DNA of 64,000 nucleotides from Terramyces sp. JEL0728. Taxonomy: Eukaryota > Chytridiomycota > Chytridiomycetes > Rhizophydiales > Terramycetaceae. The translations under genes and the position numbers were made by a program. Of this stretch, positions 1 through 64,000 are shown piece after piece. The notes beneath the pieces were generated by a model. It did no database searches. It saw only the letters and a list, made by a program, of their open reading frames with translations, and was not told where the DNA came from. Location of the stretch: positions 62,001 to 126,000 of the forward strand of contig JADIIU010000007.1 in the NCBI GenBank assembly GCA_027603945.1, given 5' to 3'. Position 1 is the first letter of the stretch. Every line of letters begins with the position of its first letter.

Positions 1-1693
1 GATAAGAGGAGCCTTAATAAATTAAATATTACCCTCTGTTCAAATTCGGATACGATATGGTTCAGACATTCATTCAACCTTGAAACTTCACTTTTTTCTT
101 TGATGAGTTCTTGCTGGAGGCTTGTATATTCAGCATAAATTTGGGTAAAAGACTTTCCGGTTTTCTGCATACGACTTGCAACGGCTGCAGTCTGACTAAA
201 TTGTCCAACTTGCTCAGCAGTTGATTTGGCAGAAAGCTCGTTATTGATAGTTTGCAGTTCCGACTCTAATTTTTCGATGTCGAGGTGCAGCTTATTTTTT
301 TCAAGCTGCATTTCTTCGATAATTTCATTCTTTTCCATGAGTCTACTTTCAGATTCATTGTTTAGTTTGTTCAACTGTTCTTCTACTTTACGTAAAACAT
401 CTTCAAGTTCTTGATTTTGAGAGGCTAATTCCTGGCATTTAGATTGATATAAATCCGCAAGTTTCTTCTGGCTATTCATTTCTATCTTGAATTGAGATTC
501 GATTGTGATTTGGTTATTTTCCAATTCGCGAATCTGATTTAGCTTAGTTTCCAGCTTTTCTTGCAATTCGTTGTTTCGTTCGAGAAGCGACTGATTTCTA
601 ATTTGCAGCGAAGAATTCTCTTGGTTTGCAGTGTCTAACCCCGCTTGAAGGGAGGCAACCTGTTCTGTTTTCTCTTTTCTGTACTGCTGTAGCTGATCTC
701 CTTTGCTGGCTAGCTCTTGGTTTAGCCAATCAACAATTTTTTTAGATTGCTGGGCTTGCTGATTCGCGTTCGCTAAAAGAGACTTTAATTCCAGTTCATT
801 AGCTTGGGTTTGGGCCAAAAGCTCTTTGTCTTTTCTCGATTCGATTTTTTTCTCTTGCAGTTGCTTCTTTTTATATTCAAGCTCCTCTGAAGTTAGATGT
901 TCAAATTTGAAATTGAATTGAAGAATCCAATGCGGTAGGACTTACCTGACAATTGGAAACACTCTTGTTGTTTTGCATTCAGAACAAATTCCAAATTTTG
1001 TTTATCATGATCCAACGTTTCTTGAACTGCCTTGTTTTTTTGTTGGCTTTGATCGCGAATAACTTTTAATTTTTCTTGGATTATGGCTTCCTTTTCATCT
1101 CTTTCCTTTACAATCGATGCATTTTTTGTTTTTTGTTCATCTAGCTGGGCTGAAAGAGAAGAAATTTGCTTAAAGAGATCAGATATCTGAGTTTCATACT
1201 TTAGCGCTTCCTTTTCAAATATGTGATTCCATTCTAGATTCTTTGGTTTCCCCATCGTTCCTGCTTGTGATTTTTGAGGCGACTCTACTTTCCTGGGGTT
1301 TGAGGGTGATTTCTGGTTATTTTCTGTCAGAGAGTTTGACTTGGAGGGCAACGTTGGGACAGAGTTTGAGCTAGATTTAGAAGGTGAGTCTGGATATCCA
1401 ATTGAAGTCGATTTTAGTTCTCTTTCTCCAGATTTAGGTGTGACTTTAACAGATTTCACAGGTGAATTCGAATCCAAGGTAGCCTTTTTCTGTGGAATTC
1501 CATTTTCACTAGACTTGTCATTTAATTTCTTTGGAGTAACAACATAATTTTCAAATGGATCCATCCCCGCATCCTCATTCAATGCTTCAAAGTCTTCCTT
1601 TGGCGGCTTCATTTCTACATCCTTTGATGGATTTTGTATATCGTCGAGTATGTTTTCATCGTCAAGTTCTGTGTTTGAACTTTTGTTTTCCAT
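1..1693 (-). CDS. TPR/Mlp1-like nuclear basket nucleoporin, N-terminal part (runs off left edge)
   Basis: The gene enters the window at its 5' end and continues beyond position 1. The first ~170 residues are low complexity (Ser, Pro, Lys, Asn rich). From about 1200 downward the protein is almost continuous heptad-type coiled coil. Two introns are needed: 945-887 (59 nt, GTAAG...CTAACTTCAG) and 32-13 (20 nt). After the second, the frame reads ...SEFEQR-APLI, which fits the conserved TPR/Mlp segment where a coiled coil ending in 'EIE.KAP' is preceded by 'YTSLQQEL'. TPR/Mlp proteins form the nuclear basket and act in mRNA export and quality control. The start at 1693 (MENKSS) is preferred because a divergent gene begins at 1728; an in-frame ATG at 1747 would overlap it. 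Family assignment is by remembered motif only and could be another large coiled-coil protein. Confidence 0.65.
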
Positions 1694-1727
1694 TGCAGGT
1701 GAAAGATTATTCTCGATCTGGAAAAGA

Positions 1728-3543
1728 ATGGCACTCAAGAAAGTCAAAAAAATCCGCTTGGATCCATTGGAATATCTTCAAAACATTGAACTTGATTATA
1801 TATCGACTGAAAAACGAATTCAACCAACTAAAGTTCACCCGTTCCAGACACCACTTGAGAAACCAGACCTCTTCCAGCATGAATTGCCAATTTATTTGTC
1901 TGAAGGCGTTAATTTACCAAGACTATTTCGAAAAAAGATACCTGTGGAATCTCCTGCAAAGAATCTCGATATACACCATTTTCACGTTGAAATACCTGTA
2001 ATATCTTTCAGCCGAATGGATGAGCCAGTATTTCTGGAAATAAATGAATCCAAGCTTGAATTAATTGAAAATTACCCGGGGAAATGATGAAGAATTTGCA
2101 TTGTCCGTTGGTACACGAATCAGTCCTGTCAACTCCGTTTACCGTTGATATTGGATTCAAACCCAGTCACTTGGCAGATAGGTTGTTTGACATTGATCAA
2201 ATACGGAGCTACCAGTTGGAACTGCCTTTGGAATTCACTTTTGTACCATCCAAATCTATGAAATCCACGATGCTTCAACTACCAATGATACTGATGCGTG
2301 GCCTTGAAAATCACAATCCTCTAAAAGCGATTTCGCTCAAAACATCAACTGCTGCCCATCTTCAACACGAAAATGAGCAAATACCTCCAGTTAATCTCCG
2401 CCAATTTGAATGCGATTATATGGAACTGCAAAGTAATTACAACGAAATAGTATACCACTATTATACAGGTACAAAGTTGAAAAATCTTACCTGCTTGAAG
2501 GAGTCTCTGTCTAAAAGCAACTATGACTTGCTGGATTGCAAAATCTTTGTTAATTCAACTTTATTAACTTGGAACCTCCATTGCTGTTTAAACGCTTCTT
2601 TTCATTTGGATACAGAGTTGAAACAAGAACGAAAACTCGACCTTGGTATTTCTCGCAGCGCAGTTAGCATGCCAAAATCAATTTTTGATCATGAAGATGA
2701 ATTGGCTTTGGAAAATACTTACAATGCCGGATTGCAGAGCCAGCCCCAGACAACATATTTGCAAATCCATGATCGCGTTGACACAGCAGTAGCTAGATAT
2801 TTTAGTTTGAGAGGCCAAAAAGAACTCACAAAGATAGCAGAGCAACCACCAACAGCTAAAGTGCCAGTTAAAACGATACCAAAAAAATTAAAATCTCCTG
2901 CATATATCTATACCAGCAGTGATATCATTCAACGACTGTCGCCAGTTTTTTCAATGGCAAATATTCATGCTTATGAGCGATCAAGCCAAAATTGGATAAG
3001 CGTCGACTCCAAAACTTGCATAGTCCTCTTCAAATTATCAGAAATGTTTCAAACTATACAAAGCAGCTTGCTTGATGCTGCATCCAAATTTTCCATCATT
3101 CATATTCTCCTGGAGTTTGATTCAGTGTATCAAGATTCCAAAGTGCAAGGAGTGTATCCATTTACTTTTCCAAACAATTGTTCCATTGGTGACTCGAAAG
3201 GATTCATTTTTAATGTGTTGGAACAAGAATTGGGTTGCAAGTGCCATATCTGGTATTGTTTCAACTTGGTGCAGGTAGTTGACAAGATAGCTCGTTTATC
3301 ACTGCCATTTGGATTGGAAAAGGAAGAATCCATTCAAGAGACTTTTCTTGTTGGGTTTCCCGGAATGAATAACCATCTGGCAAACATCATGCTCAAGAAA
3401 TACTCTTTAAAGGAAATCTGCCAAATGAACATTGACTCAATGAAATTGGAATTGGAACAGCACGCCGACCATTGCCGTCTGGTAATTCATTTTAACCGCA
3501 GGAATTGTTTCACAAACTCTTGCACTACAATTTAAATCGGTAA
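1728..3543 (+). CDS. XPF-type nuclease-fold plus helix-hairpin-helix protein, SHOC1/Zip2-like
   Basis: The C-terminal third looks like an XPF/ERCC4 module. A strand-like stretch near 3020-3120 (CIVLFKLSEMF, IIHILLEFDS) is followed by a helix-hairpin-helix (FPGMNNHLANIMLKKYSLKE). No ERKxxxD nuclease motif is visible, so the fold is probably catalytically dead, as in the meiotic crossover factors SHOC1/Zip2/Spo16. The 3' end needs a 20-nt intron at 3482-3501, which gives the tail ELFHKLLHYNLNR and a stop at 3541-3543. The N-terminal part (1728-2087) and the rest are in different frames and overlap at ATGATGA near 2085. A 65-nt intron at 2028-2092 would join them into 576 residues, but it lacks the usual branch site, so a frameshift or two genes remain possible. 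The poly(A) hexamer overlaps the stop. Function is inferred from fold only. Confidence 0.5.
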
Positions 3544-3551
3544 TAAAGTGC

Positions 3552-6500
3552 TTATTTATTTCTACCTGCTGACGGCGACCAACATCTATTGCTTTCCTCT
3601 GATACAAAGTCATACTGGCCAAAATTAAGTATATACCTGGATAAGTCTCTAATATATGGAGTACAAAGAGCAGAATTACGTGGAATGAACGGACCTACAG
3701 TTAACTACAAATACCAAAGCGTTTTCCGTCTAGAGTAAAGTACACGGAATCGATCGATGAGTCTATACCTACTCCTATAGTTCGCTGGCCAAGCGTTGCC
3801 CGGACTTTGTAAAATACATGGACAAGGTCGGATTCTTGGCCAGATTCTAGAATCTTTTCTAATTGGTCTACACAGAAAGGATCTGCGGGAGCCGTAGAGA
3901 TCTTTACCAAGTAGATAACTTGAGATTGTGGTTGGAAAACAAGAGTAATAATCTGGTGGTGGCTCGTAATATACCCAATATGTACACATCTAAGGTTAAT
4001 GAAAATTACTCTTCATAATTTAGTTTGCCAATCTTTAGTTCATAGTACATACAGATATCCAAATTGGCAGAAGTAGTGATTTGCAATTTTCCTTTCTTTG
4101 GACTTTTTGGTGATTGATCACTGATATTTGGTCCATGCTCGGGTGTAGAGCTAACAACTTGCTCTATATCTTCAGTAGCAGCCGAATTAACAGGGCTATC
4201 CGATTCATGCAAACTATTAGAACCGCTTTCAGAAATCTCATTCTTGTCTGAGGCTTCCAATTTATCCTTTCCATCGATGCGTTCAAGTATTCTAGCAAAG
4301 TTCTCGTCAATATTAGCTGTATTTGGCACTGGGGAAATCGAATCCTTTTCATGTGCAAGCAAAGGAGCTGAATAGAAGATATTGCTAATATCAGCCGAGC
4401 TTGAAAGGTATTCTGCGGAATGAAAAGTATCTTGGTCAGGAACAGGAATCGGGTGATATTCTGCAGGACAAAATCTAGAGTTAATTACTCTTACTTCAGG
4501 TGGTCGAGATCTCCGCCAAATTGGAACTCGCCCCACTGCTCTCCAGTCAGAGAAGCCGCAGGATACCACGTTTCATTAACATTGATATCTTCAAACGCAA
4601 TTCCCAAACCATTACCGTTAAGCATGTACGATATTTTAGCACTGTCAAGATCAATTAAACAAGTAACGACATCTTTGAAAGACCATTCTATCCCATACTC
4701 GTCGCAATCAACATCCCGTCCGTGCCATTTACGAATACGAGACCCGTCGAAAGCATAGGAAAGCATATCATCACCAACGCCCCATCCGCCGTATTCCTTT
4801 GGTTCGTATTGGGCACAAACCCACCCGAGCTGTATAATACCAGCACTTCCTAGTTGAAACTCGTAAGCCCACTTTCCTCTACCGCTGACACCATATCGAG
4901 CTACTACAGTTTCAAATGTCCAAGTCTTATTAAAACAGTGAAGCGAATGGTTTTCAATATCGGCAAATTGGGTGGATCTAGTCTCGTCTAGCGAAAGAAC
5001 GGTAGGAGAATAGTCTGCCAAAGTGAAATCGCATAGTTTTGACACAAATTTCTTGAAAAAGACCCAATCTTGCTCGTTGTTTAATTTTGCCACTGTTCTC
5101 AAGACATTTATAAAGTTTGTTTCCGAATACAATAGTTCTTGCCGAAAAATATCTTTGTTAGAAAATATTACCGTAGCTGGCGAAATGAGGAAGAGCGTAA
5201 ATAATTGGCTTGTTAATCTTGTGTCCATAGTCAGCCAACAAGACAAACAAAATTGAAATTATTGTTTCGCTTAGCATAAACTCTCTGAATGATTCTAGAT
5301 TACTTTTCGTATACCAATGTATAGCAGATTGACAATACATTCTACTGCGGCTTTTGGAATCTCGAGCTTCATTGTTTCCAAATTACCAGAAATTTGTTGG
5401 TTTAGTTGATTCAAAACTAGAGGGAATACAAGGGCATTCAAAAGGGAGGTTCCAACGTCATCCAATATGTCTTTAATGTACTCTGATAGTGGTTGATGGT
5501 CTTCTGGTTGCTCGTTTTCAAAAATTTTGCTTTTTAACAATATTCCCAAACATTCAAGTATTGTCAATAGTTTAGAGCAGTTTGTTTGGAATGCGTCATC
5601 CTGCGGTGAGATTGGCAATTCTTCCAAATCGTGCGGGACAGTTCTGGTAGGCGAAAAGGAGTAACTGTCGTTTGATATGCGACTATTCGGTCTTCCTGCA
5701 CTATAGACAGACTCTTTTACTTCCATGGTTGGAGAATGAGCTGTATTTTTGCTTTCCAAACCATTGATCGCATTTACTACTGTAGCGATATTGTTGAACA
5801 TTTTGTAAAACAGAGGCCGAATTAATGTTATTACTACTTCGAACCTGATAGTTTCACCTGGAATTAGCCATTCTTACAATTGTTGGCCAAACTCAAAATC
5901 GCCTTACTAGCCATTTGTCTAATATTGTCTGTCTCGTCCATAAGGACAATATCGGTCAGAAGCTGGACGCCATTCAAATCACAAATCTGATTGGTGATTG
6001 TTGATGAAACGGAAGCGATATTCACCAGCACCGTTACAGCTGTATGCTTGATATCGTAGTCGGTGAATTTGATGTACGAAATCAATCTCTCTGTCATTTT
6101 GCTACGTTCCAAAAATGGGATATTTAGTGCTACAGTTAAAACAATATACGATCTGTGCACAAAACTCCAAGAATTTCAATTACATATAGATGAATATGAA
6201 CCATTGCAGAATCATGGACTGCAAGCATTGCGGATAGTGCACCTGATTCGAAAATACTCTTTTGACTTGGCATTTGGAAAGCAAGGATATGGAGCAAGCC
6301 CAGTGCCCAATACATGGTTTGTTCTTCGTGTCCTTGCAAGGTCTTTGCAATTTTATCCAGCATCTTTGCTCTGACGATTTCCTTGTAAAATAATTCTGGT
6401 TAAATCATAGTACTTTCAGACTCGCAGAGACATTTGAGCAACCTTAGAATAATTCGGGGCAAAATCGTATCTGAATTCTTGATTAATGGAGTAATGATTT

Positions 6501-7493
6501 TAATAAAGCCTTTAATCCCACATATCTCCTTTAATTTCACCTCTACTATTAAGTCCTAGTACTTCTAATGACATATTCGTGTAATACAAAAATACTCCAG
6601 CTAGCTAGTTCAACATCGCTGTTCCTGAGACATCCTGAAGCCAAAGAAATTAACTTTAAATCCGCAAGTCCTTCTAAAATCTGAACCGACTCATTTTCAT
6701 CCTCGATCGTTGAAAGGATTCGCACAATGGCATGAAAACACAGTTTCTGTACAGTTGGATTAGAAAAATTCAATTTCACCATTTCTGTAAGTACACTCAT
6801 GATATTCTTTGAAATTAATATTGCGGAAACGCTGTCTGTTTGCGAGAATTGATGAATCAGACTAGATTAGAATCATGTACCTGACACTCCAGAATTTCAA
6901 GTCACTATAGCGATGAGAATCTTGCTGCAAGAATTTAATTAGGTGGTCCAATACGCCGTATGAGACTATTTTCGACTTGCGTTTATCTCATTAATTCGAA
7001 AATACCGTTATCCAGCGTCAGATGATAGAGTGAGGCAACTGCATATCGGTGTATCTCTGGGTCTCCATCCATTTTTAAAGATTTAACGAGTATCTTTAAA
7101 AGCTTCTTTCGTGTTAGCACGCCTCTGTTCCGTTCCGTTCCAACTAATTGCTGAATAACAATCATTGCTTTCTTTCTCTTGTGTTGATCATCAGATTGGC
7201 AGCATTCCAACAAGTAGGGTAGATGTTTACTCGACATGGCTCTGTCAAACAGTATCTGAATTGCACTGTATTAATGATAAGTACCTGTTGCGAATGCTTG
7301 TAACTTGGCAGTTTACCAATTTTGCCAAATCCGATAAGCTAATATAGTCTTCAGCTCTAACTTTGTTTTTCGCATCAGGTAGTTTTGGTACTGGTATATT
7401 ATTAATCTCCTGGATATGGTTGTACATTCTTATCCCTAAAAGTGCTGAACATAATCCAAGCGATGCGGAAATCAGGAGTTGCTCATTGTTCAT
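3552..7493 (-). CDS. Armadillo-repeat and SPRY (B30.2) domain protein
   Basis: Twelve introns of 18-20 nt join nine or more apparent fragments into one protein of about 1235 residues: 7284-7266, 7005-6987, 6880-6862, 6562-6543, 6423-6406, 6149-6130, 5877-5858, 5314-5295, 5171-5153, 4494-4475, 4009-3990 and 3714-3695. The N-terminus has a hydrophobic helix (LLISASLGLCSALLGI). About 400 residues of armadillo-type helical repeats follow, then a Ser-rich linker, a complete SPRY domain (GWGVGDDMLSYAFDGSRIRKW), an acidic linker and a second SPRY-like half (YFTLDGKRFG ... ILNFGQYDF). SPRY and ARM domains are protein-interaction modules; the SPRY resembles those of RING-SPRY ubiquitin ligases, but no RING is seen. 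The stop lies 9 bp from the convergent neighbour's stop. The C-terminal NFGQ motif argues for retaining a candidate intron at 3636-3615. Cellular role unknown. Confidence 0.8.
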
Positions 7494-7771: not shown

Positions 7772-9130
7772 TTACCACATAAATCGTTGATTCTCAGGAT
7801 TATCTGGCCACTTGAATGGTTTGTACAAGAACAGCTTGAATACAGCAAAATTTATCGCTAAATGGAAGATTGTCTCCAGGTAGACAAATACTCTTGCCGG
7901 TTTGAGGTTCAATCGCACGAAAAAGTATGGAATGATAAAGTATCTGAATTCAATTAGTGGTGATGGGATTAAGGCTGCAGCAGTGCATACAAACAGAAAT
8001 ACAATCCACATTGGATGTCTGTTGATTTGGGTTGAAATCGAGTAAAAGCAGATAATATACCTACGTTAGTGTAAATTACCCTGGAATCAATGCATATCTG
8101 ACAATCTCATTTGTTTTGAATAGATACTTCCAAATATAAAAAGTGAAATGTCGGTTATCCGCAAGTAAAAACTGATGGCCAATAGTATTGTACTTGATTC
8201 CTAATGCCATGATGCCAGTCAGTAATAATATATCAGTGATTCGCATTCTAGCGTTAATTGTCAGGTACTTTTTGTAAATGGTGAAAATCTTTAAAGGATC
8301 GAGTGAGAATATTGAAAAGAAGGCAGAGAAACTGATGAAATAAAGCATTTGCGGAGTATGAATTGTGGTTTGATGGTTCGATTTGTCTCCTAGTACTATT
8401 CCGCCATTCTGGACAACAAACCATGCAAATGCAAGCATAACAATCACATATGGATATAATGGAAGCAGTAGATTCAGATTTAACAAACTGGATTTGACAA
8501 ATAAGAGAATCATTTTCAGTACGGAATCTACGATTAACGAAGCTTACATGAACCACTGATTTTGATATTGAAATCAGTCGATTTCAACAGCGATAACCCA
8601 TGCACAGCGGCAATAAACGCTACCCAAATGACATTGGTCTGTCTAAAGAATAGCGAAGCAAATCCAAACATGGCACTCGATATAATTTTGTTTCTTGTTG
8701 ATAAATAGTATGATAAAAACACTAGGAACGTGGAAATGGTATCGGTATAAAATAAAAAGTTGAAAAAGAATGAAACGGGGAATAGAGCTACCAGTGGTTC
8801 ATTGCTAATGCAGTTGAACAAGATACAGGTAAATATCCCAAATATCAAATTCAAGGATCTGAGGATCATTGTTTCGTTGAATTGAATTAAATTCATGATT
8901 TCCCTGATCAAATCAAAATCCAGTTGAATAAAATACTGGTAGTAGTATAATCCTAGGTAGTACAATCCTGGTGGTGTTGTTATTTTATCGTTCCATGTGA
9001 AATCCCCATTGATATATTTTACTGTCTGAGAGATGTGAAATATTTCGTCCATGTATGGGTGTGTTACTATCTGATTCACAATCACAAATGCTATTAGTGA
9101 GAGTGAAATGAATGAGATTACAGACAGCAT
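7772..9130 (-). CDS. ALG10: Dol-P-Glc alpha-1,2-glucosyltransferase (ALG10/Die2)
   Basis: ALG10 adds the third, terminal glucose to the dolichol-linked N-glycan precursor in the ER lumen. Family motifs are clear: YMDEIFHISQ and KITTPPGLYY near the N-terminus, RQTNVIW, VQNGGIVLGDKSNH, ADNRHFTFYIWKYL, a C-terminal IEFRYFIIPY and the final FMW. The protein is highly hydrophobic throughout, as expected for a multi-pass GT-C enzyme, and is about 439 residues after removing introns 8547-8528 (20 nt) and 8079-8061 (19 nt). The start is the ATG at 9130. The stop overlaps the poly(A) signal (TGG-TAATAAAA). Together with the cis-prenyltransferase at 46.5 kb it shows a full-length N-glycan assembly capacity. 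Confidence 0.93.
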
Positions 9131-17940: not shown

Positions 17941-18545
17941 TTACTTGAGTGGTACGAAACGGGAAGAGTTGGTAGCACCGATACCTGGACGACCGTGACG
18001 AACTGGTTTGTAGGTGATTGAGAATTCTCCCAAGTAGTGGCCAACCATTTCAGCTTTAATTTCGACTTGGTTGAAGGTCTTTCCGTTGTAGATACCAATG
18101 ACTGAACCAATCATTTCAGGAACAATAATCATGTTTCTTAAATGGGTTTTGACAACAGCTGGCTTTTCGTATTGTGGAGCTTCCTTCTTTGCCTTACGGA
18201 GCTTCTTGATAAGACCCATAGGCTTGCGTTTAAGACCACGTTGGAAACGTCTGCGAGCACGGGAATGGACAAGGTCGACAAGCTATTGTTAAAGCGATAA
18301 TACTTGTTCAGTGCTCATGTCCAACAATTGTTCCAAATCAACACCACGGTAGGTGAATTTTTTGAATGATCTCTTTGCTCTGGAGATAGCAGCAGCTTCT
18401 TCGTCGTGATTGTCAGCCTATTGATTAGTCTTGTCCTTTTGATAAATCCATCAATCCATTGCTATTTCCCTTACCCTCGGACAGCTACTTCAAACCTCTT
18501 TCAAGGTCTTACTTGAATTGATGGGTTTTACTGCTGTCTTACCAT
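17941..18545 (-). CDS. RPS15: 40S ribosomal protein uS19 (RPS15)
   Basis: Small-subunit head protein near the decoding region. After splicing the protein is about 152 residues and matches eukaryotic RPS15 throughout: [55 protein letters not shown] and [17 protein letters not shown], ending RFVPLK. The first intron directly follows the ATG codon (18542-18418, 125 nt, GTAAG...CTAATCAATAG) and is the longest in the window. The second (18303-18283) is 21 nt. A long first intron right after the start codon is typical of fungal ribosomal-protein genes and may take part in regulation. Confidence in the product is very high; the first exon of one codon is inferred from the strong splice signals. Confidence 0.95.
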
Positions 18546-24485: not shown

Positions 24486-25922
<1,437 letters not shown>

Positions 25923-47333: not shown

Positions 47334-47455
47334 TCTAGAAAGCGAGAGATGCATACGAGTCTCTAAAGCCAAAAAACAGTAGAATTGAAAGTTATTTAAA
47401 AGAATTATACGCAAGCAGACTGGAACGTTGCGGACAATAATATAGTGTATGGATT

Positions 47456-53607: not shown

Positions 53608-54589
53608 TCAATCTTGGTATATTATTGAGGGAATGTCTTTCTGAATTTGGATACTTGAAGTTTGTTTTTCATCTTTTTTATCTATCCAGCCTTCATTAAT
53701 GACAAACCCAATCATGTTCCATATCCCTCCTGTTGTGAACCCAAACACTGCTACCAGTATGATATATTTGTGGTAGTAATCAAATATCCCTCCGATTACA
53801 TATGGAATGGCAAGGCACCTGGTGTTAATAACTTTGTTACCATTGAGCGAAATAGTTAAATATGAAAATCAGGATTTTCCTTGCTGAGCGGGTCAGGATA
53901 TCGTCCTCGTCCAGGTTCTTGTCAGGAACTTTTGAAAACTGCATGGAAGTCGAATGCGCCATCTTTCTTGACATTTTCCATTGTATTTCCTTTTCTATTT
54001 TTATCTCTCTTATTCGCTGGAGGACTTTTATCCCGCAATATAAAATTATACCAAATAAGGTGCTTTCCACGACTACTGAAACTATCGGTAGCGTCTTATC
54101 TTTGCTGTACATTGTTTCGTAACACCAATACCAGCTTTGTCCGTTGGATTTGTAAGCAATGGCTTCCAAAATCAGAGATATCACGGATACGAATGCTAAA
54201 AGTCTCCAATCGTGCTTTCCTAAATCTAATGGTCGTTTAATGATTGTGCTGAAATATACATGGACTGAAATGGAAGCGACCAAGATGCAATTTGATGCTG
54301 CTGAGAATCCAACGACCGCCGCTATTAATCTGCACTCTTCCCCATCCCAATCTGTCCCAAAAACAATGTTATGCAGCTGGTCAGCCATACATGACAAGTA
54401 CATTAAAATATCTGTCATTGCAATGTAGAAAGGGAATCGTAATGTAATCGGCTTGCTGCCCTCCTTTTTCCACCGATAAATCACACGGGTTATAACGTAT
54501 AGAGAGCCTATAAAGCTCAACTGCAGTGCCGTCAAACTAATTCCATAAATTAAATCCCTATCTTCCACCGGCGGAATAGGTCGATTCAT
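53608..54589 (-). CDS. Seven-transmembrane receptor, cAMP-receptor/Git3-like class
   Basis: About 319 residues with seven predicted spans: YGISLTALQLSFIGSLYVI; FPFYIAMTDILMYLSC; AAVVGFSAASNCILVASI; LLAFVSVISLILEAIAY; VVVESTLFGIILYCGI; then, across a 22-nt intron (53840-53819), FNYFAQW-CLAIPYVIGGIF; and IILVAVFGFTTGGIW. A cysteine after TM2 (EEC) and one in extracellular loop 2 (WYWCYE) could form the usual disulphide. The third cytosolic loop is long and charged. The organisation matches the fungal/Dictyostelium cAMP-receptor-like and Git3-type receptors. Ligand unknown. An upstream hydrophobic in-frame stretch (54600-54650) has no convincing start and was not included. Confidence 0.68.
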
Positions 54590-54707
54590 TCTATGGTAAA
54601 TGTTTATGATGTAAATAATTGAAATAATGGCGATTGTTGCAACAATAACTGAAATTTGGTTATAGAGTTACTAGAAATACAAAGTACAATAAATATACAT
54701 GATTTAT

Positions 54708-55793
54708 TTATGCCTGAGTAGCGGTGATGCCGTTGCAAGCACCAGATGACTGCCCAACAACGACCTCACACTTTTCCTCCTTTTGTCCTTGTGGGGTAGC
54801 AGCAATCAAGAAGCCGGCCTTGTTATCGGCAGAACAGAATTGAAGTGCACAACCTTTAATTCCTCCAACATTAGCACAGAAAGATCCTTTGGTTGCAGAT
54901 ACGGTCTTGCTTTCACCATTAGCGGTAAAGGTGAATTGAGTAGGAGTAGTGGCGGTAGATTGTGGGCAAGTACCAGTCTTTACACCCTTGGTGTTTTGGC
55001 GAGCAACACCACCAAGATCTTTTCCAGCATCAACAACGGTAGCACCAGTTTGCAAGGTAGCTGGAGCAGTAGCATTTGCAGCTGCGTTATTTGCATTTCC
55101 AGCAGTATTGTTAGCATTTGCAGCTGCTGCAGCGTTTCCAGCAGCATTGTTTGCATTAGCAGCACCTGCAGCTTTGTTAGCTTTCTTGCCCTTGGATTTC
55201 TTGTGTTTCTTATTCTTCTTGTTCTTCTTCTTGTGTTTCTTGTTCTTCTTGCTCTTTTTCTTGTTCTTTTTGTTCTTCTTCTTGTTCTTTTTCTTGTTCT
55301 TCTTTCCTTTGCCTTTGCCTTTAGCCTTGTCAGCTTTAGCAGGAGCAGCACCATCTTGTTGGACGGCAGTTAGGCCATTGCAAACACCAGATGATTGCCC
55401 AACAGCTGCTTCACATTTTTCCTCCTTTTGTCCTTGTGGGGTAGCTGCAATCAAGAACCCACCTTTGCTGTCATTGGCACAGAATTGTAGGGCACATCCC
55501 CTGACTCCACCAACAGTAGCACAGAAAGAGCCAGTAGTAGATGATACGGTTTTGCTTTCACCGCCAGCGGAGAAAGTGAATGAGGTTGGGGTGTTGACAC
55601 CAGAAGGACAAGTCCCAGTCTTTACACCTTTGGTGTTTTGACGTGCATCTCCACCAAGATCTTTTCCAGCATCAACAACAGTTGCACCAGTTTGCAAGGT
55701 AGCTGGGGCAGTAGCGTTTCCAGCGGCTGCAGTGTCATTGCCAGCAGCTAAAACAGCCGAGATAAGGGTAACTAACAATGTAGAATATTGCAT
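54708..55793 (-). CDS. Secreted protein with two repeated cysteine modules and a lysine-rich spacer
   Basis: A 361-residue single-exon protein starting with a clear signal peptide (MQYSTLLVTLISAVLAAG). An Ala/Asn/Thr linker precedes a ~95-residue module: LQTGATVVDAGKDLGG, KTGTCP, SKTVS, GSFCA, GCALQFC, GFLIAATPQGQKEEKCE, GQSSG and CNG. It has six cysteines. A spacer of about 55 residues made almost only of Lys, Asn and His follows (~55165-55325), then an Ala/Asn-rich hinge, then a second, near-identical copy of the module. The design suggests an extracellular or cell-wall protein whose cationic middle could bind polyanions. No known family was recognised. The reverse strand shows long open frames here, but they are a by-product of the repetitive composition. 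AATAAA overlaps the stop. Confidence 0.8.
   Translation of the reverse strand: MQYSTLLVTLISAVLAAGNDTAAAGNATAPATLQTGATVVDAGKDLGGDARQNTKGVKTGTCPSGVNTPTSFTFSAGGESKTVSSTTGSFCATVGGVRGCALQFCANDSKGGFLIAATPQGQKEEKCEAAVGQSSGVCNGLTAVQQDGAAPAKADKAKGKGKGKKNKKKNKKKNKKNKKKSKKNKKHKKKNKKNKKHKKSKGKKANKAAGAANANNAAGNAAAAANANNTAGNANNAAANATAPATLQTGATVVDAGKDLGGVARQNTKGVKTGTCPQSTATTPTQFTFTANGESKTVSATKGSFCANVGGIKGCALQFCSADNKAGFLIAATPQGQKEEKCEVVVGQSSGACNGITATQA
55165..55325 (-). repeat. Lysine/asparagine codon minisatellite inside the secreted protein gene
   Basis: On the plus strand this stretch is built from imperfect CTTCTTGTTCTT-type units, encoding K-K-N-K runs on the minus strand, with occasional K-H-K and K-S-K variants. 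Internal drift between units indicates an older expansion. Such coding repeats often change length between strains. Confidence 0.7.
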
Positions 55794-56284: not shown

Positions 56285-57327
56285 TTACAACGGATGATGG
56301 AACAAGAAGGACATACTTTCTCCATTGTGAGTTCTTCGAATTGCTTCAGCGAGCAATCCGGAAATATCAACTTGAACCAGCTTACTGGACATTCTCTTTT
56401 TTTCTGGCGATATTGGATAAGAATTCGTGACGATAATTCCATTAATTGCTTCGCAGTTTTCAATAACTCGGAGTGCGTTCCCTGACAGTATTCCGTGAAC
56501 AGCTACAATGTAGACCTTGGCAGCGGAGCATTTTTTAAGGTGCTGCTGTTACAATAAATGTACCTCGCAAGAATCAATAAATGAATGAGTTCCATCAATT
56601 ACATCGTCCAATACAAGACAGACTTTGTCATTTACATCTCCAACTAACGATAATTTGGTTTCGTATTCTTCAGTAACGTTGTTCCCTTCTCTGATATGGT
56701 AACGCTCGCGATGAATCAAAGCAAAATCAATTTTCAAAGTGTCTGCCAATTGGGTGACGCTATGTCAATATCAAACTACCGACGTGTACCACCAGCGTTC
56801 TTTGATACCATGATACACTTGTCCAACTGAAAATGATCAGAAATATACTTTGCAAGACTAGGTTGGGCCAGCAGATTGTCGCACGGCTTATTGAAAAACC
56901 CTTGTGTAAGTGATGAATGCAATTCAAGTGTGATGACGTGGTCTACCCCAGCAACAGCCAGCATAGTAGCAACCAATTTGGCTGAAATCGCACCCCTTGC
57001 CTTTTTTTTCTTTGACTGCTTATTGTATGGGAAATATGGCAGTCTATGTTCAATAATTAGTTACACTGCAGTGATTCTACGAGCTGCTGCTGAACGACAT
57101 GACGAGATCATAATAAGCAGCTCCATCAAGTGATCATTCATTGAGTGCGATCCCGATTGAATTAAAAATACATCTGCGTCACGAACTGAAACTCCTAGTT
57201 CCACACTAGTTTCGGCGTTTGGAAATCGTTTTACTATTGCTGGGGAAGGAGGGATACCCAATCTGTCCAATATCAAACCGGTGAGTTCAGGATGAGATGA
57301 CCCAGTAAATATTTTGATTCCTGGCAT
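56285..57327 (-). CDS. PRPP synthetase family protein, Prs1/PRPSAP-like subunit
   Basis: Ribose-phosphate diphosphokinase family, 326 residues from four exons (introns 57064-57044, 56779-56760, 56563-56543; 20-21 nt). Motifs: KIFTGSSHPELT, FPNAETSVELG, DVFLIQSG, MELLIMISSCRSAAARRITAV, the long QSKKKKARGA stretch, and the C-terminal LLAEAIRRTHNGESMSFLF. The PRPP-binding loop, normally DDx2DTxGT, reads LVLDDVIDGTHSF, so the Gly-Thr that grips the pyrophosphate is lost. Degenerate loops are typical of the regulatory Prs1/PRPSAP-type subunits that assemble with a catalytic partner. A catalytic paralogue is therefore expected elsewhere. Confidence 0.88.
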
Positions 57328-57400
57328 TTCTGTTGTTTTTGTTTCTGAATCTGAAATTTTCGAAAGTGATTAGAATAAAAAAACGAAAGATTGATTTTTA

Positions 57401-58064
57401 TTATAGAGATTGAAGAATATCCATAATGTCCTTGAATGAGGTCCATGCATGGTACGGAATACCTTCCCTCTTGCAGTAGGTTTCCAAATCGTACCCTTTA
57501 CGTGCAAAAATCAAGTGGGCTTCCCTTGCAGCAGGCATGTCAGAGACACCATCTCCTATAAATACAATCTTGTCGTTTGTGCCTAGTTTCTTGTATTCTC
57601 TTAATCTGATGCCTTTGTCGTGACCATAATGAGAATCGTCAAGGTAAATGATTTCCCAATGCCCAGGATGGATTTTCAATCCATTTGCGACCAATTCCAA
57701 ATCATATTCTTTTAATTCTCTTTTAAAAAAATGCTCCAACAGGGGAACCAACCCAGAAGACAAAACAGTCATCGGGTAATTGCTGGCTTTGACCCATTGG
57801 TAAAACTCTTTGAAATGCGGATCAAATTCAATATCGTCGACAATTTCGGCGGCTTCTTCAAAAGTAGGATAGTCCACTGCTCTCCACATTTCCTCGACAG
57901 CTTCTCTAAAGCTTTTAGTACCATTCAAAATCTCCTTGTCCAAGTCCTTCCTTCTTTCCCTTCCCATTTTCAGGTCGATCAAACGAACCCCAGTATCCTC
58001 CTTTGTAATAGTACTGCAATTAGCTTAATATGTACCCATCAAAGTCTGAAAAAATTGCGAACAT
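57401..58064 (-). CDS. HAD-superfamily phosphatase, YNL010W/MtnX-like
   Basis: A 213-residue phosphatase. A 22-nt intron (58035-58014) joins the short first exon MFAIFSDFDG to TITKEDT, which forms the catalytic DxDGT motif. Later blocks are VLSSGLVPLLEHFF, GHDKGIRLREY, the acidic GDGVSDMPAAREAH, and ARKGYDLETYCKREGIPYH. These match yeast YNL010W and related phosphoserine/MtnX-type HAD phosphatases. In yeast that family acts on glycerol or similar small phosphates, but specificity is not proven. Start at ATG 58064; the divergent KAPA synthase begins 132 bp away. The stop overlaps AATAAA. Confidence 0.85.
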
Positions 58065-58196: not shown

Positions 58197-59442
58197 ATGC
58201 CACACAATTTGGCCAACCAACTACAAAGGATTCTGGACAATAGAAAGGAGAAACACACCTTAAGAACACTCATAGTCAATAATCTAATCGACTTTAGCTC
58301 CAACGACTATCTTGGTTTGGCACATTCCCAAGAATTGAACCAAATCATTCAATCCCACTCTTTAAGTGGTTTAGGATCAACCGGATCCAGATTACTATCA
58401 GGGCATTCACAAGAGTCAGCCGACCTGGAAAGATATCTTGCAGATTTTCATCAGGCGGAGGATGCGCTGTTATTCAACTCTGGATTTGATGCAAACTATG
58501 GAGTGTTTAGCTGTCTTCCTCAGCCAGGCGATGCCCTATTTTATGACGAGCTTATCCATGCATCAGTTCATGCTGGCATGAGAGCTTCACAAGCAAAAAT
58601 GATCACACCATTTAAACACAACGACCTTGAAAACCTCTTACATTTGATTAAAGGATACCAGGAAATCCATACTGGCAATATATTTATCGCTATAGAGTCG
58701 CTGTATTCCATGGATGGTTGTTGGTCAAAGTTGGAAGATATTGCAGAATTAATCCGGCCAATGGAAAATGTTTATTTGATTATCGATGAAGTACTATAGT
58801 TCTAACAGCAGGCACACTCCACTGGGATAATCGGAGATCAGGGGCGGGGATATGCATGCAGTTTAAACTTGCAAAAGGATGTTCTTGTTAGAGTTCACAC
58901 GTTTGGCAAGGCAGTTGGATGCCACGGAGGTATTTTTTGTTAATATCAGCCGTTGTGCTTTGCAGCCCTCTGTTGAAGCAGTATTTCATCAATTACTCCA
59001 AGCCAGTGATATTTTCAACTTTTCTCCCGTCGCATTCCCTATTGTCCATCAAATGCGCTTATGAATACTTTATAAAAAACAGCAGTGAACTCAATCTTAA
59101 ATTGTATTCATTAATCAAAAGATTCAGAGAAAGGATGACCTCCAAAAATTTGTTGGAATCTGATAGTCCGATTCAAGGATTAGTTGTCCCAGGTTTATAC
59201 AATTTGATTTAGGAAATATAAACGTAATTGCTGCAGGTGAGTATTTGAAAAAGAAAGGGTTTGGGGTCTACCCTATTCGATCACCATCTGTCCCAAAAGG
59301 AACGGAAAGGATTAGGATATGTATTCACGCTCACAACACCGTCCAAGAGATTGATGCCTTAGCAGAAGCAATCAACACACTTGAAAGACAGGTACAACCA
59401 AGTAAAACGGGAACCGCTGGTGGACCTCACGCAAAACTATAA
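58197..59442 (+). CDS. 8-Amino-7-oxononanoate synthase (KAPA synthase, BioF) with C-terminal PTS1
   Basis: PLP-dependent alpha-oxoamine synthase that condenses pimeloyl-CoA (or pimeloyl-ACP) with alanine in biotin synthesis. Three introns (58791-58811, 58930-58949, 59193-59212; 20-21 nt) give 394 residues. Motifs: FSSNDYLGLA, GLGSTGSRLLSGHSQESADL, IIDE-AHSTGIIGDQGRG, the PLP lysine in HTFGKAVGCHGA, FSTFLPSH and VYPIRSPSVPKGTERIRI. The protein ends PHAKL, a peroxisomal targeting signal type 1. Peroxisomal KAPA synthase is known from filamentous fungi, where pimeloyl-CoA is made by peroxisomal beta-oxidation. The related 2-amino-3-ketobutyrate ligase is a less likely alternative. Confidence 0.85.
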
Positions 59443-59483: not shown

Positions 59484-61341
59484 TTATTGAATCTGGATAG
59501 TATTTTGCAGGACTTGTTCTTCCAGCTTTTTAGATCTAATTGACAAGGATTGCAAAAAGGTCAGCAGCGACAGGAATGATAGCAAATTGAAAATAAAAGA
59601 TTTGTCGAATGGAAATGGCAACTCGCTTCTCATTGACCATGCCCAGGCAGCTCCGCCGATTATTGGTCCTGCGATTTAATAAATTATTACCAATCCCTCT
59701 TGCAAAAGATACAGCTGTTTGTCCAATCCCATTTACTAATCCAAGCTGCCCAGGTTTAGCTGATTCGTTAACCTATTTAAAATCTTATTTACTACAATAT
59801 TTATAGAAGTGAATGCAAGCACATTTCCAAATCGTCTGATCGCAAGCAGTAAGGTAAGCACAGGCCAGAGGAAGGCACGAAATGCCTCAAAGGTAACTGC
59901 ATATGTAATTACAGGCAGCAGAGCCCATGCAAAAGTGTAGAGCAATAACGACCATCGATAAATCTTGGTTGCTTTCCATCGCTGGTTGATTTTTGGATAT
60001 AGCAAGATTTGATAAAGCAGTGTAATGAATCCCATGATTGATAGAATAGTTCCAATTTCGTGAGTAGAAAAGTCGAGTCCGTCTATCGTTAATCGCATGT
60101 ACATCCAATTGGTGCTGTTGCCCAAAGATTGAAAATTTCATCAAAGATCATGTTCACAAATGACAGCATGCTATATCCAGTAATTGCATGAAATGCCAAA
60201 TACCCAATTCCGGTTTCCGGTATAATTGAAGCAACAGCGGGGGCTTCTGCGTCTTCTATACCTTCCGATAATGCATCCCAAATTTCAGTGGTCGTTTGTC
60301 TATCCAAGTGACTGAATCTGCTGTTGAACAGGTTAGAAGCTGTATATCTGTTTTCTTCCATCACTGACAAAGTGCTATTCTTTGGGGTTGAAGAATGCAT
60401 TCCAATTGAGCACTGTGCTGGAAATATTTGGGTGTTATGCGAATTAGAATCGTCGATATCTGAAGCTTCATCCACCTCCAGAACAAATTCGTAGCCGTTA
60501 ACTATATGAGATGTTTCAGGCAGGTAATAATAGCCCACTACTAGGCCGATAAATGAAAGAATCGCTGCACAAAGGCATGGCAGGAAATATGGATACTCTG
60601 TGAAAAATTCCTTGACAATGTCACCAAATACTAATGGCATATTTTCTGCTGGATGAACAAAATATCCTCCTGGATTAAGGTCCAATAATTACCTAGAATA
60701 GGCCCAACAATCATCCCCAGCCCCCATACAAACCCAACAATAGAAAATGCTAAAGCATGATTGCTCCTATCAGTCATCTCGGCAACTGCACTCTTTGCCA
60801 CTCCCGTATTCGCATTTAATCCACACCCAATCCTGGCAATCGCAGCCCAGGTAATTGATTTGGACAATCCAAACATTACCATAAATATGCAATTTCCCAA
60901 TAATCCTACAAGCAATATAGGACGTCTGATTAAGTGAAAGATACCGTCCAAATTTATCCGATAACACTCCCCACAAGAGCGAACTGATGAACTGGGAGAA
61001 CGAGAAAGCGGCTGCTATTAATCCAACATAAAATCCTATATCTTTCAGAGGTACCTGATCAAAGTCTCGTACCATAAAGTAAATAAACGGGAACACTACA
61101 TTAGCGGGATGTTACACATTGTCATTGATACTGGCTCAATGAATATTGTAAAGCAGATGACTAGCTACGTTAGACTACTTAAACCATAGACCGTAAAGGC
61201 AGTTGTGTTTCTCGTACTGTAGATTCCGGTAGCAGGGTCCTCTCTGACATTATTTAGCTGTAGTTTTGGTTTCGTTTTGTTGTGGTTGTTGAACGCGTGA
61301 TAAACAATGCCCATGGATAAATAGTCACCATAAATGACCAT
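59484..61341 (-). CDS. Major facilitator superfamily transporter
   Basis: Twelve-span MFS carrier, about 568 residues if the start is the ATG at 61341. The A-motif is intact: SSLLWGVLSDKFGR-RPILL, with a 19-nt intron between GR and RP. Other conserved parts: ARIGCGLNANTGVAKSAVAE, SIVGFVWGLGMIVGPILG-GY, HEIGTILSIMGFITLLYQ and a late SAKPGQLGLVNGIGQTAVS. A large hydrophilic loop lies between TM6 and TM7. Introns found: 61115-61096, 60944-60926, 60692-60670 (23 nt), 60102-60083, 59792-59773 and 59690-59669. One further intron near 61185-61159 (27 nt) joins the first span; the 5' end is the least certain part. The family resembles fungal multidrug/zinc-induced MFS proteins, substrate unknown. Confidence 0.82.
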
Positions 61342-61419: not shown

Positions 61420-62163
61420 ATGCCTTTTGTTTTTGTCGTTATAAATGAGGAAATGCCTCCAGAAAGCAGATCGCTGCTTCAATCGTTACTGATGCCATAC
61501 AAAAAAGTAATATGCATTAACCAGATATCCATTTTAACGTCTACAGCTGATAAATTCAAATTATGTTCACTTAGGGAAATTGAAGCTGGATTAGCAGATA
61601 CCAACCCCCGACAGCAATTTCAGGAGAGTATGGAATACTTTACTTCAATGTTCCAATACGCAGTCGATGTGCAAGCAGAGAATGTAATGTTCCTGTTACC
61701 ATACAATTTGCAATTCTGGCTTGGGAAACCGCTCCTAGTCTTGTTAGGAAAGAGTTATATGGCGGCTACAGCTTACCGGGCACTGCCAATCCACATCCAT
61801 TTTATTGAAACCAGAGCAAAGGTACCCAATATCACCAAAACGCAGGTTGTTCCAAATCTAATGATGGAATATATACAAATATCCAATATTAAAGACTTGG
61901 CTGCATATATAAAGTTGTATGATACGCAAAAGCGTAAAGTATCTGATGCAGGGAGCGCTAAAAAGAAGATTAAGCTTGAAGAAGTCAAGGTGGAAGAAGG
62001 ACAAGTTAAAACTGAAGAAAGAATCAATCGCATGCAGCCTAGCTACTTGATTTGCGATCCATGTTTGGACAAACCAAAGAAATGGCCAGATGGGAGTATT
62101 GGCCAGCGTATACAAGAGCCGCCACGGCCAGATTTCTATGGAAGGCTGTATGGTCTGAACTAG
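61420..62163 (+). CDS. Conserved-looking protein of unknown function
   Basis: A 247-residue intronless frame with good codon character and normal spacing, but no family recognised. The first ~170 residues look globular with alternating hydrophobic strands and helices (FVFVVINEEMPPESRSLL, NVMFLLPYNLQFWLGKPLLV). A basic/acidic low-complexity segment follows (KKIKLEEVKVEEGQVKTEER), and a conserved-looking C-terminal motif with a CDPC cysteine pair (YLICDPCLDKPKKWPDG) and PPRPDFYGRLYG. The basic stretch could be a nuclear signal. The start codon is 78 bp from the divergent MFS gene start. Confidence 0.6.
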   Translation: MPFVFVVINEEMPPESRSLLQSLLMPYKKVICINQISILTSTADKFKLCSLREIEAGLADTNPRQQFQESMEYFTSMFQYAVDVQAENVMFLLPYNLQFWLGKPLLVLLGKSYMAATAYRALPIHIHFIETRAKVPNITKTQVVPNLMMEYIQISNIKDLAAYIKLYDTQKRKVSDAGSAKKKIKLEEVKVEEGQVKTEERINRMQPSYLICDPCLDKPKKWPDGSIGQRIQEPPRPDFYGRLYGLN

Positions 62164-62219: not shown

Positions 62220-62581
62220 CTAAGCATCGTTGCTGAAAATGTAATGTCCAACAGCCATCCCTAATAAAACGGAAGCCATCAGAAACCCATTCAAGGACAT
62301 GAGGAACAACATCAGCAAAAAATGCCCCAAGTACTCTAAAATATATCGCACAGTCTTGCCAGTCTTATTTTGTCTAATAACGCCTTTCAGCATAAGTTCG
62401 CTTTCCAACGACACTTCATTCTTTACTGATTTGTAGTATTCAAAAATAAAGCTGTAAATAAATAGGATGAGACACAAGAGAGCGGTTGGGAATGGACCGT
62501 CAATAGTTGTAACCAAAAAATAGAATTCTATCGTTAGCGAATTTTACTTGTGTTCCAATTAATCGCAATTTGGTTGTCCAT
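62220..62581 (-). CDS. CTR-like copper transporter, minimal form
   Basis: A 113-residue three-span protein. The second span has the family MxxxM selectivity motif (LLMLFLMSLN) and the third the GxxxG packing motif (VLLGMAVGHYIF). The first exon (MDNQIAINWNTK) joins FYFLVTTIDGPF through a 20-nt intron (62547-62528). CTR proteins form trimers and import Cu(I). The N-terminal methionine clusters typical of plasma-membrane CTRs are absent, as in vacuolar or other intracellular members. Two direct repeats lie just upstream. Identification rests on topology and two motifs, so moderate. Confidence 0.65.
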
Positions 62582-62947: not shown

Positions 62948-63339
62948 ATGGCACTCAAATTTAACTCTTGAACAATACAAAGAAATCATTAGAACGAACC
63001 CATTGGTGTTTGTAAAAGTAGGAGCAACCTGGTGCGCACCATGCAAAGTAATCAAACCGATATTCCATGGTATGCTTGGAAGATGAATTCATGATATGTT
63101 CATCTTGCCAAATCCCAGCAAGTCATGAACATCCAGCTGATAGATTCAAGGAATGCTTAACCATGGATGACTTTGACAAAGCGCAGATCTACACTCAACT
63201 CAAATCTAGAGTCAAATGGTTAATGTCTCTGGAGTTCTGTAAATTGGACGAAGAGCAAGTTACAAAGTTGTACCTCGACTTGAAAGGAGATAGAAAAGGC
63301 CTTCTTAAAGCACTGAAAGGAGAAGCAAAAGAAGAATAA
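62948..63339 (+). pseudogene. Broken thioredoxin-domain paralogue
   Basis: A degenerate copy of the gene at 63551. The start ATGGCA is matched, but one extra base around 62962 shifts the frame and brings a stop after seven codons. The thioredoxin segment with TNPLVFVKVGATWCAPCKVIKPIFH is still readable in another frame. Immediately after IFH the sequence jumps to the equivalent of the paralogue's zinc region (CLEDEFMICSSCQIPASHEH) in yet another frame, so about 85 codons of the thioredoxin core and first cysteine pair are deleted. The remaining 3' part stays open to a stop overlapping AATAAA. No splicing with the window's intron pattern rescues it. Confidence 0.7.
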
Positions 63340-63550
63340 AGGAAATACAAATGTATTTTGCAGTTTTGATATATTGTATGAATAGAGTTAGCTGGAGTAC
63401 CTGGCAGGTGAGAAACACAAAGAAACTCTAGCCCTATCATTAGGTGACAGGCGTGAGTCAGACCAGTCACCGCCAAGATTCTTTGAGATATGCATCATCA
63501 ATGTCATCAGATAAAGTATAAATTGCCAATAATGCAATCACATTATCGCA

Positions 63551-64000
63551 ATGGCAGATTCCAATCTTGCACTTGAAGAATACGAAACAATAATCCAAGC
63601 TAATCCACTAGTATTCGTAAAAGTAGGTGCAACATGGTGTCCGCCATGCAAAATGATCAAACCAATATTCCACAAACTCTCTACAGAGTACGAATCTGCG
63701 AAATTTATTGCGATTGACACGGATACATCCAAAGGCAATGAAGACTTTGCAGCAAAATATGGAGTGCAATCCTACCCAACCTTTTTGTGTTTCCACAACG
63801 GCAAAGTAATGCAATCGCTTATTGGCGCTGACAAGCAAGCACTCGCAAGTATGGTGGAAATGATGACAACATCGCCAACAGACAAATTCGTGTGGTGGGG
63901 ATTCAGCTGTGATGTGTGTGAAAAGTCAAATATCATTGGAAACTTGCTGATCAGCAAACAAGACGAGTTTATGGTTTGTACATCATGCGCGATTCCGGCA
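63551..64000 (+). CDS. Thioredoxin-domain protein with C-terminal zinc-binding region (3' end beyond window)
   Basis: Intact copy of the tandem pair. The N-terminal thioredoxin fold is complete: LVFVKVGATWCPPCKMIKPI with the redox-active WCPPC, FIAIDTD, the cis-proline YGVQSYPTFL and FHNGKVMQSLIGA. It is followed by two cysteine pairs (FSCDVCEKS and VCTSC) likely to bind zinc. By comparison with the broken neighbour, the missing end should be an ~80-residue helical tail rich in Lys and Glu. The substrate is unknown; cytosolic because no signal is seen. No intron is needed within the visible part. Confidence 0.88.
   Translation, partial: MADSNLALEEYETIIQANPLVFVKVGATWCPPCKMIKPIFHKLSTEYESAKFIAIDTDTSKGNEDFAAKYGVQSYPTFLCFHNGKVMQSLIGADKQALASMVEMMTTSPTDKFVWWGFSCDVCEKSNIIGNLLISKQDEFMVCTSCAIPA

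Follow-up and report, generated by a model that had tools for sequence, protein, structure and literature searches.

The window analysed here is a stretch of 64,000 nucleotides (nt) of contig JADIIU010000007.1 (positions 62,001 to 126,000) from the assembly of the fungus Terramyces sp. JEL0728 (Chytridiomycota, Rhizophydiales, Terramycetaceae), which comprises 15,016,339 bases in 231 contigs. Its protein-coding genes are interrupted by GT..AG segments, nearly all of 18-24 nt, which we regard as very probable spliceosomal introns. The final annotation of the window has 37 gene models with 105 introns; 97 of these measure 18-24 nt (18 nt: 2; 19: 14; 20: 43; 21: 23; 22: 12; 23: 1; 24: 2) and eight measure 51-274 nt. 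It contains no tRNA and no Rfam family above the gathering score.

Gene models of the window

Coordinates are those of the window, and lengths in brackets are in nt.

1-1693, minus strand: coiled-coil-like protein (by reading), truncated by the window edge; introns 945-887 (59), 32-13 (20)
2084-3543, plus strand: gene; intron 3482-3501 (20)
3437-7493, minus strand: ARM/SPRY-type protein (by reading); 13 introns, 7284-7266, 7005-6987, 6880-6862, 6562-6543, 6413-6396 (18, GTACTATGATTTAACCAG), 6149-6130, 5877-5858, 5314-5295, 5171-5153, 4494-4475, 4009-3990, 3714-3695, 3636-3615
7772-9130, minus strand: gene; introns 8547-8528, 8268-8248, 8079-8061
9521-11803, plus strand: arginyl-tRNA synthetase, Pfam tRNA-synt_1d and DALR on the last exon; introns 10226-10246 (21), 10652-10672 (21)
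11881-13317, minus strand: gene; intron 12753-12733 (21)
15009-17813, plus strand: 6-phosphofructokinase, aligned to 3opy_B; introns 15219-15237 (19), 15555-15573, 15870-15889, 16453-16474, 17206-17227
17941-18545, minus strand: gene model; introns 18542-18418 (125, candidate), 18303-18283 (21)
19146-19778, minus strand: gene; introns 19589-19571, 19362-19343
19794-20997, plus strand: CDK-type protein kinase (by reading); introns 20288-20308, 20372-20391, 20512-20531
21507-22024, minus strand: gene; introns 21986-21966, 21914-21895, 21618-21598
22465-24310, minus strand: NPL4, with junctions compared to homologues; 7 introns, 24307-24289 (19), 23980-23959, 23672-23653, 23421-23400, 23164-23145, 22911-22892, 22705-22687
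24498-25922, plus strand: RIO2-type kinase (by reading); introns 25174-25193, 25610-25631
26115-26515, plus strand: gene model; introns 26138-26188 (51, candidate), 26472-26491 (20)
26599-28515, minus strand: threonyl-tRNA synthetase; 21-nt gap 27439-27419 by homology
28734-30186, plus strand: gene; intron 29437-29458 (22)
30233-30705, minus strand: gene; intron 30442-30423 (20)
31041-34518, plus strand: TPR protein gene model; introns 31356-31375, 31832-31906 (75, candidate), 32101-32120, 33521-33541
34564-37122, minus strand: gene; introns 37077-37058, 36993-36974, 36889-36870
37637-40010, plus strand: OPT oligopeptide transporter, stop codon 40008-40010; introns 37738-37758 (21), 38031-38052 (22)
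40274-41355, plus strand: aspartyl protease gene, start ambiguous; intron 40413-40433 (21)
41392-41706, minus strand: gene; introns 41634-41611, 41490-41470
44477-46407, plus strand: Xaa-Pro aminopeptidase, with junctions compared to homologues; introns 44561-44580, 44843-44862, 45100-45120, 45396-45414, 45523-45543, 46014-46034
46644-47440, plus strand: polyprenyl diphosphate synthase-like gene (by reading); introns 46692-46710, 47188-47207, 47319-47338
47456-49731, minus strand: NSF/Sec18 ATPase, aligned to 9cru_A; introns 49606-49585, 49504-49484, 49131-49112, 48780-48761, 48157-48137
50065-50897, plus strand: gene; intron 50539-50558
50969-52375, minus strand: gene; introns 52251-52233, 52143-52124, 51795-51775, 51473-51453
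52720-53503, plus strand: gene; introns 52923-52942, 52997-53016, 53294-53314
53608-55793, minus strand: gene model; introns 54742-54649 (94, candidate), 53840-53819 (22)
56285-58064, minus strand: probably two genes (phosphatase and PRPP synthetase by reading) joined at 57462-57351 (112); introns 58035-58014, 57064-57044, 56779-56760, 56563-56543
58197-59442, plus strand: 8-amino-7-oxononanoate synthase-like gene (by reading); introns 58791-58811, 58930-58949, 59193-59212
59484-61341, minus strand: MFS-type transporter (by reading); introns 61184-61161, 61115-61096, 60944-60926, 60692-60670, 60102-60083, 59792-59773, 59690-59669
61420-62163, plus strand: gene; intron 61507-61524 (18)
62220-62581, minus strand: gene; intron 62547-62528 (20)

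The eight longer introns (51, 59, 75, 94, 112, 125, 201 and 274 nt) were judged by eye. The 274-nt intron 40000-40273 is a false join between the aspartyl protease and the OPT transporter, whose reading frame ends at a stop codon of its own, and the 201-nt intron in threonyl-tRNA synthetase is wrong, as it spans the 21-nt gap demanded by homology. The 112-nt intron is probably another false join, and 945-887, with the usual spacing between branch site and 3' splice site, is probably a genuine longer intron. The public model HDV01_006751 likewise fuses the OPT transporter with the adjoining protease (37637-41355).

Evidence for the intron class and its geometry

Splice signals and a built-in length preference both enter the final annotation, whose length distribution thus cannot serve as independent evidence. 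Two simpler versions of the gene finder are free of this preference. In version 1 the coding statistics came from long open reading frames (ORFs) of the same DNA, and an intron was any GT..AG segment of 10-250 nt, all lengths at equal cost. Run on the window and 24 loci (277,622 bases as summed lengths), it placed 102 of its 237 introns at 18-24 nt, compared with 7-23 for the 13 decoy dinucleotide pairs that served as controls, and GT..AG alone among the 14 pairs yielded a length peak. The remainder included 119 calls at 32-250 nt, a number similar to the 178-202 of the decoys, and these are mostly noise. Donor, branch and acceptor signals were visible in the 102 short introns, though nothing beyond GT and AG had been demanded. 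Version 2, which used these signals with the length preference switched off (301,604 bases), returned 389 introns, 276 of them of 18-24 nt, the others forming a thin and flat background across 16-297 nt. The final annotation holds 442 introns, of which 411 measure 17-25 nt. An early signal-aware finder with too low an intron penalty gave 2,235-3,684 introns over four drifting rounds; it was discarded and the penalty was raised. From the signal-aware runs onward, loci L026, L028 and L034 are excluded from the counts on account of overlap with other loci, and L035-L042 enter no count.

A strict motif was defined as GTA, a YTAAY whose A is preceded by 13-15 nt, and an AG whose end lies 4-7 nt past that A. 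Counted independently of intron calls within gene spans and strands taken from the finder, it has 237 sense and 4 antisense matches, and 4-15 matches in 10 Markov resamples. When the donor and the branch site were demanded and the 3' end was left free, AG was picked in 222 of 267 cases. The class is present in all 20 ten-kb stretches taken from 20 other contigs, where the length-preferring annotation finds 258 introns within the range of 18-24 nt and 23 outside it. Extrapolation from 355 introns in 264 kb gives about 20,000 per assembly, a matter of arithmetic rather than a count. Predicted coding sequence carries 1.69 introns per kb; among 148 genes predicted in full, 119 contain introns (mean 2.6 per gene), and 405 of 410 intron sequences are distinct. 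The five repeats, counted twice, all come from L022 and L023, which were both retained; these are near-identical stretches with the same introns on small contigs (C199, C111), either haplotype copies or a recent duplication.

The original prediction had described spliceosomal GT-AG introns, nearly all of 18-24 nt, in a fungus, with GTA, YTAAY and AG at fixed spacing and the donor nearly touching the branch site. The assignment to a fungus is right; its size class agrees with 97 of the 105 introns of the window and with the length-blind run, and its layout with version 2 and with the anatomy of the 411 introns described below. Three of its examples (26472-26491, 15219-15237 and 10652-10672) lie where it had placed them; the 18-nt example GTACTATGATTTAACCAG, given as 6423-6406, actually occupies 6413-6396, 10 nt away.

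Removal of these segments restores conserved proteins. The spliced NPL4 aligns to its Boothiomyces counterpart P0121 with 90% identity and no internal indel. In comparisons to a homologue database clustered at 90% identity, its seven junctions are gap-free within 5 residues in 99/99, 112/119, 119/120, 98/120, 120/120, 117/120 and 86/119 homologues (protein mean 0.79). No Terramyces protein is named among the homologues listed for NPL4 and the aminopeptidase, to which the clustering of the database allows no weight to be given. The first NPL4 intron, 24307-24289 on the minus strand, immediately follows the ATG and is backed by the conserved N-terminus. For the Xaa-Pro aminopeptidase, the six junctions are gap-free in 120, 120, 119, 45, 120 and 119 of 120 homologues (mean 0.90), the junction with 45 lying where identity is just 0.17. 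The two OPT transporter junctions are gap-free in 57/103 and 111/117 homologues (mean 0.73); here the public annotation of this genome (P0001) agrees with the spliced protein at every one of residues 1-740 and excises the same 21- and 22-nt introns. The ORF 38025-40007 of this gene matches HDV01_006751 at 99%, and the reverse tblastn returns to the window with 100% over 648 residues. For two further proteins the evidence is alignment to structures over most of the length rather than per-junction scores: residues 1-714 of spliced NSF/Sec18 align to SEC18 (9cru_A, E 4.2e-229) with few short gaps, and residues 76-890 of the spliced 6-phosphofructokinase align to PDB 3opy_B (E 3.8e-233). Outside the window, the gene for U1C (L036:1205-1798, minus strand) has exons of 9 and 10 nt beside introns of 21 and 22 nt, the 10-nt exon lying between them near the start codon; after excision the protein begins MPKYYCDYCD, compared with MPKFYCDYCD in U1C of 6qx9.

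The anatomy of the 411 introns of 17-25 nt is that of a double ruler, with 13-14 nt from the donor to the branch A, taken to be the second A of YTAAY, and 5-6 nt from there to the end, for a total of mostly 19-22 nt. The branch A is preceded by 13 nt in 180 introns, 14 in 172 and 15 in 37, so that 352 have 13-14; counting from it to the last G gives 5 nt for 175 introns and 6 nt for 162 (337 together). The spacing pairs (13,5), (13,6), (14,5) and (14,6) account for most of the introns of 19, 20 and 21 nt. The branch site conforms to YTAAY (TTAAT 115, CTAAT 78, TTAAC 54, CTAAC 39 of 411), the 3' site to YAG (T 63%, C 26%), and the donor shows A at position 3 (90%), A at position 4 (56%), T or G at position 5 (44% and 21%) and T at position 6 (60%), the commonest donor by position being GTAATT. 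The preference for T over G at position 5, unlike the usual GTAAGT, may accompany changes in U1 or U6, or U6 methylation. Positions between the signals hold little information, the guanine-plus-cytosine content is 0.30 compared with 0.40 in coding sequence, and phases 0, 1 and 2 are represented by 177, 126 and 108 introns. Internal exons have a median of 243 nt (n=258), the shortest being of 8 nt, and six of the 258 are predicted to be of 8-30 nt. Tiny predicted exons flanked by ultra-short introns include those of 8 and 24 nt in L015 and of 15, 18 and 27 nt in L017.

It had also been claimed that the TAA of the branch site usually makes an in-frame stop. This holds for 121 of 411 introns, about one in three, and thus "usually" fails. 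What survives is a weaker form: introns with a length divisible by three contain an in-frame stop in 79 of 93 cases, compared with 63.1 +/- 3.9 expected from 5,000 phase permutations (37 of 45 compared with 29.9 +/- 2.9 for those with the strict motif). Detection bias may contribute to this excess, because a stopless intron of such a length is the hardest to detect. In Paramecium, stops are enriched in introns of 3n length as a translational check, and the excess observed here resembles it.

The spliceosome and competing explanations

Searches of the genome revealed Prp8, U2 with the canonical GTAGTA (GUAGUA), U5 (by its loop), the second-step factors Slu7 and Prp18, SF1, a U2AF65-like gene split by introns (best match 251.7 bits, below the family cut-off of 310.3), U1C and LUC7. 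The original prediction had suggested that U1, U2, SF1 and U2AF be inspected for losses or changes; SF1, the U2AF65-like gene and U2 are present, and U1 RNA and the N-terminus of U1-70K were not found. A loss of the U1 small nuclear ribonucleoprotein was considered on these grounds and dropped because genes for both U1C and LUC7 are present. The RRM region of U1-70K matches many RRM proteins, and one stretch fetched on this basis encodes a different one. Among the few factors examined, neither a reduced spliceosome nor undetected second-step factors, as in mikrocytids and Stentor, were observed.

We propose, with a probability of about 0.93 that covers identity and geometry, that the segments are U2-type spliceosomal introns shrunk to a near-minimal fixed geometry in a chytrid. 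They have GT..AG ends and a branch motif able to pair with GUAGUA of U2, and their excision restores conserved protein. The 5' site would be picked by U1, and the branch site by SF1 and U2. With a gap of 13-14 nt, U1 and stably bound U2 would probably be unable to sit side by side as they do in human early complexes. Introns of about 20 nt are far smaller than those which the human spliceosome is known to handle. In two human test introns, splicing failed once the donor and the branch site were separated by fewer than about 46 nt (PMC11291888). As 13-14 nt would hardly accommodate both particles, we favour a hand-off, in which U6 would take over the 5' site from U1 either ahead of the stable binding of U2 to the branch site or during it. 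The tail of 5-6 nt leaves no room for a polypyrimidine tract, and hence the AG is probably taken by proximity. The origin of the class would most likely lie in deletion-biased shrinkage to the shortest length that this spliceosome handles.

Several observations weigh against this interpretation. Splicing is inferred from proteins and motifs, and the hand-off, whose odds we take to be about even for that step alone, is a proposal. Neither Rfam, nor a 23-nt pattern allowing up to 3 mismatches, nor blastn with a human query recovered U6; the two Rfam matches, which reached some 27 bits where the gathering score is 44, were dropped as unconvincing. U1 RNA was not found in genome searches that included blastn, U4 RNA was not found with a blastn composite, the only search made for it, and the search for the N-terminal domain of U1-70K was negative, which is not conclusive. 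U6 genes interrupted by introns occur in other fungi, and such a gene would escape the searches made here. At some junctions the agreement with homologues falls below the mean of the protein (86/119 in NPL4, 57/103 in OPT, 45/120 in the aminopeptidase). Among the 102 introns longer than 24 nt in version 2, 27 show 4-7 nt between branch site and end, about three times the flat background, so a genuine longer minority exists and the ruler is not absolute. Finally, in threonyl-tRNA synthetase, where Pfam tRNA-synt_2b stops at profile position 47 on one ORF and restarts at 48 on the next, the 21-nt gap 27439-27419 (minus strand) reads GT..TG without an AG end; it has 14 nt ahead of the branch A and 6 nt after it, with boundaries that may shift by one base, and its ending is explained either by a 3' site of non-canonical type or by an assembly error of one base. 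Non-AG 3' ends are unsupported as a class, TG being picked in 5 of 267 cases, on par with several other dinucleotides.

The segments might be artefacts, with GT..AG stretches picked over frames broken by sequencing or assembly errors; the assembly is a draft of 231 contigs, and it was frame breaks that first revealed the introns. Errors are not expected to have a size of 19-22 nt with GTA, YTAAY and AG in register, or to favour the sense strand by 237 to 4, and removal at the junctions is in accord with homologues, among them Boothiomyces proteins from other assemblies. This is the least credible of the explanations considered. Scarcely better is removal at the DNA level, in the manner of the internal eliminated sequences of ciliates, or skipping in translation. 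RNA processing cannot be read from sequence alone, which gives this idea what strength it has, but the 5' site, YTAAY and YAG are U2-type signals, in a genome that encodes U2 with GTAGTA, U5, Prp8, SF1, U2AF65-like, U1C, Slu7 and Prp18. The number of introns could also suggest recent gains, copied in the manner of introner elements and short by chance. The distinctness of nearly all sequences, with repeats confined to a single pair of near-duplicate loci, gives no sign of recent copying, and the low information between the signals also argues against it, so that we regard such an origin as very unlikely.

A more serious competitor concerns the hand-off only. In exon definition, U1 and U2 would pair across exons, the short intron would never hold both, and crowding would be avoided; a median internal exon of 243 nt makes such pairing thinkable. 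It would be no roomier across the few exons of 8-30 nt or across the conserved 10-nt exon of U1C, and we consider exon definition possible but unlikely. A broader picture, likewise possible but unlikely, may also be drawn: Terramyces and Boothiomyces, perhaps with more Rhizophydiales, would share one double-ruler design with second-step and branch-site factors kept, no intron would hold U1 and stably bound U2 at the same time, and the 5' site, with T over G at position 5, would be read by altered U1 and U6 small nuclear RNAs. Such alteration would explain why standard searches missed both.

Relation to known ultra-short introns

Two observations bear on the distribution of the class. The OPT transporter of Boothiomyces sp. 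JEL0866 (P0002) carries seven extra residues exactly at the second junction, which can be back-translated to a 21-nt GT..AG stretch and look like an intron left in the public protein. In P0242, a protein from another Boothiomyces strain, seven residues are missing close to the third junction of the aminopeptidase. Together, the insertion and the gap suggest that the class probably extends to Boothiomyces. Among the matches listed from the open-licence literature, no such introns are described for Terramyces, Boothiomyces or any chytrid, and the intron passages of two Rhizophydiales genome papers contain nothing relevant. A pan-eukaryotic survey left out introns shorter than 30 bp (PMC10639083), and thus those of Terramyces could not have been counted there. 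The public annotation already removes two such introns, so the data are public, though not the point. Errors in public gene models, such as the insertion in the Boothiomyces transporter and the fused Terramyces model, look due to ultra-short introns.

Terramyces shares with the genomes known for ultra-short introns a narrow range below about 25 nt (411 of 442 introns at 17-25 nt with the length preference, 276 of 389 at 18-24 nt with none) and a near-fixed distance of about 5 nt from the branch site to the 3' splice site; it does not share descent from the nucleomorph, heterotrich or mikrocytid lineages, being a chytrid fungus. Introns measure 18-21 bp in chlorarachniophyte nucleomorphs, 15-16 in heterotrichs and 16-17 in mikrocytids (PMC10245619). 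The nucleomorph resembles Terramyces in its near-identical narrow length range and in having many introns for its genome size, but it is the relict nucleus of an endosymbiont with an extremely reduced genome, whereas here we deal with a fungus and a 15-Mb assembly. Nucleomorph introns are not known to have a clear branch consensus. In the ciliate Stentor coeruleus, introns of 15-16 nt have the branch A at the 10th or 11th base and a 5-nt tail (PMC9505925). The very narrow range, the nearly fixed branch A and the tail (5-6 nt in Terramyces) are alike, and the similarity of the tails suggests a shared physical minimum between the branch site and the 3' end; the branch A of Terramyces, at the 14th or 15th base, lies 3-5 nt farther from the donor. 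Stentor is described as lacking a strong branch consensus, with introns in 18% of genes and with Slu7 and Prp18 undetected (PMC9505925), whereas Terramyces has a clear YTAAY, introns in 119 of 148 genes and both factors.

The parasite Mikrocytos mackini, with 224 annotated introns and 17-19 spliceosomal proteins identified (PMC10245619), likewise has uniform ultra-short introns of conserved sequence, but Terramyces has some 20,000 introns by scaling, together with second-step factors. Microsporidia, fungal relatives that also have relatively short introns, possess few of them and a reduced spliceosome (PMC10245619), in contrast to the intron-rich genes of Terramyces. Paramecium has one dominant short class as well, of about 25 bp (PMC5014332), longer than that of Terramyces and in a different lineage. 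The introns of Terramyces are thus a known kind of intron in a new branch of life, with a geometry of their own and with second-step factors retained. Until now the genomes with ultra-short introns were those of a relict nucleus, of one group of parasites and of giant ciliates. With its clear branch motif and with Slu7, Prp18, SF1 and a U2AF65-like gene all retained, Terramyces decouples tiny introns from genome reduction and from the loss of second-step factors; it would be a good source for structures of the early spliceosome on the shortest introns and a test case for minimal intron size.

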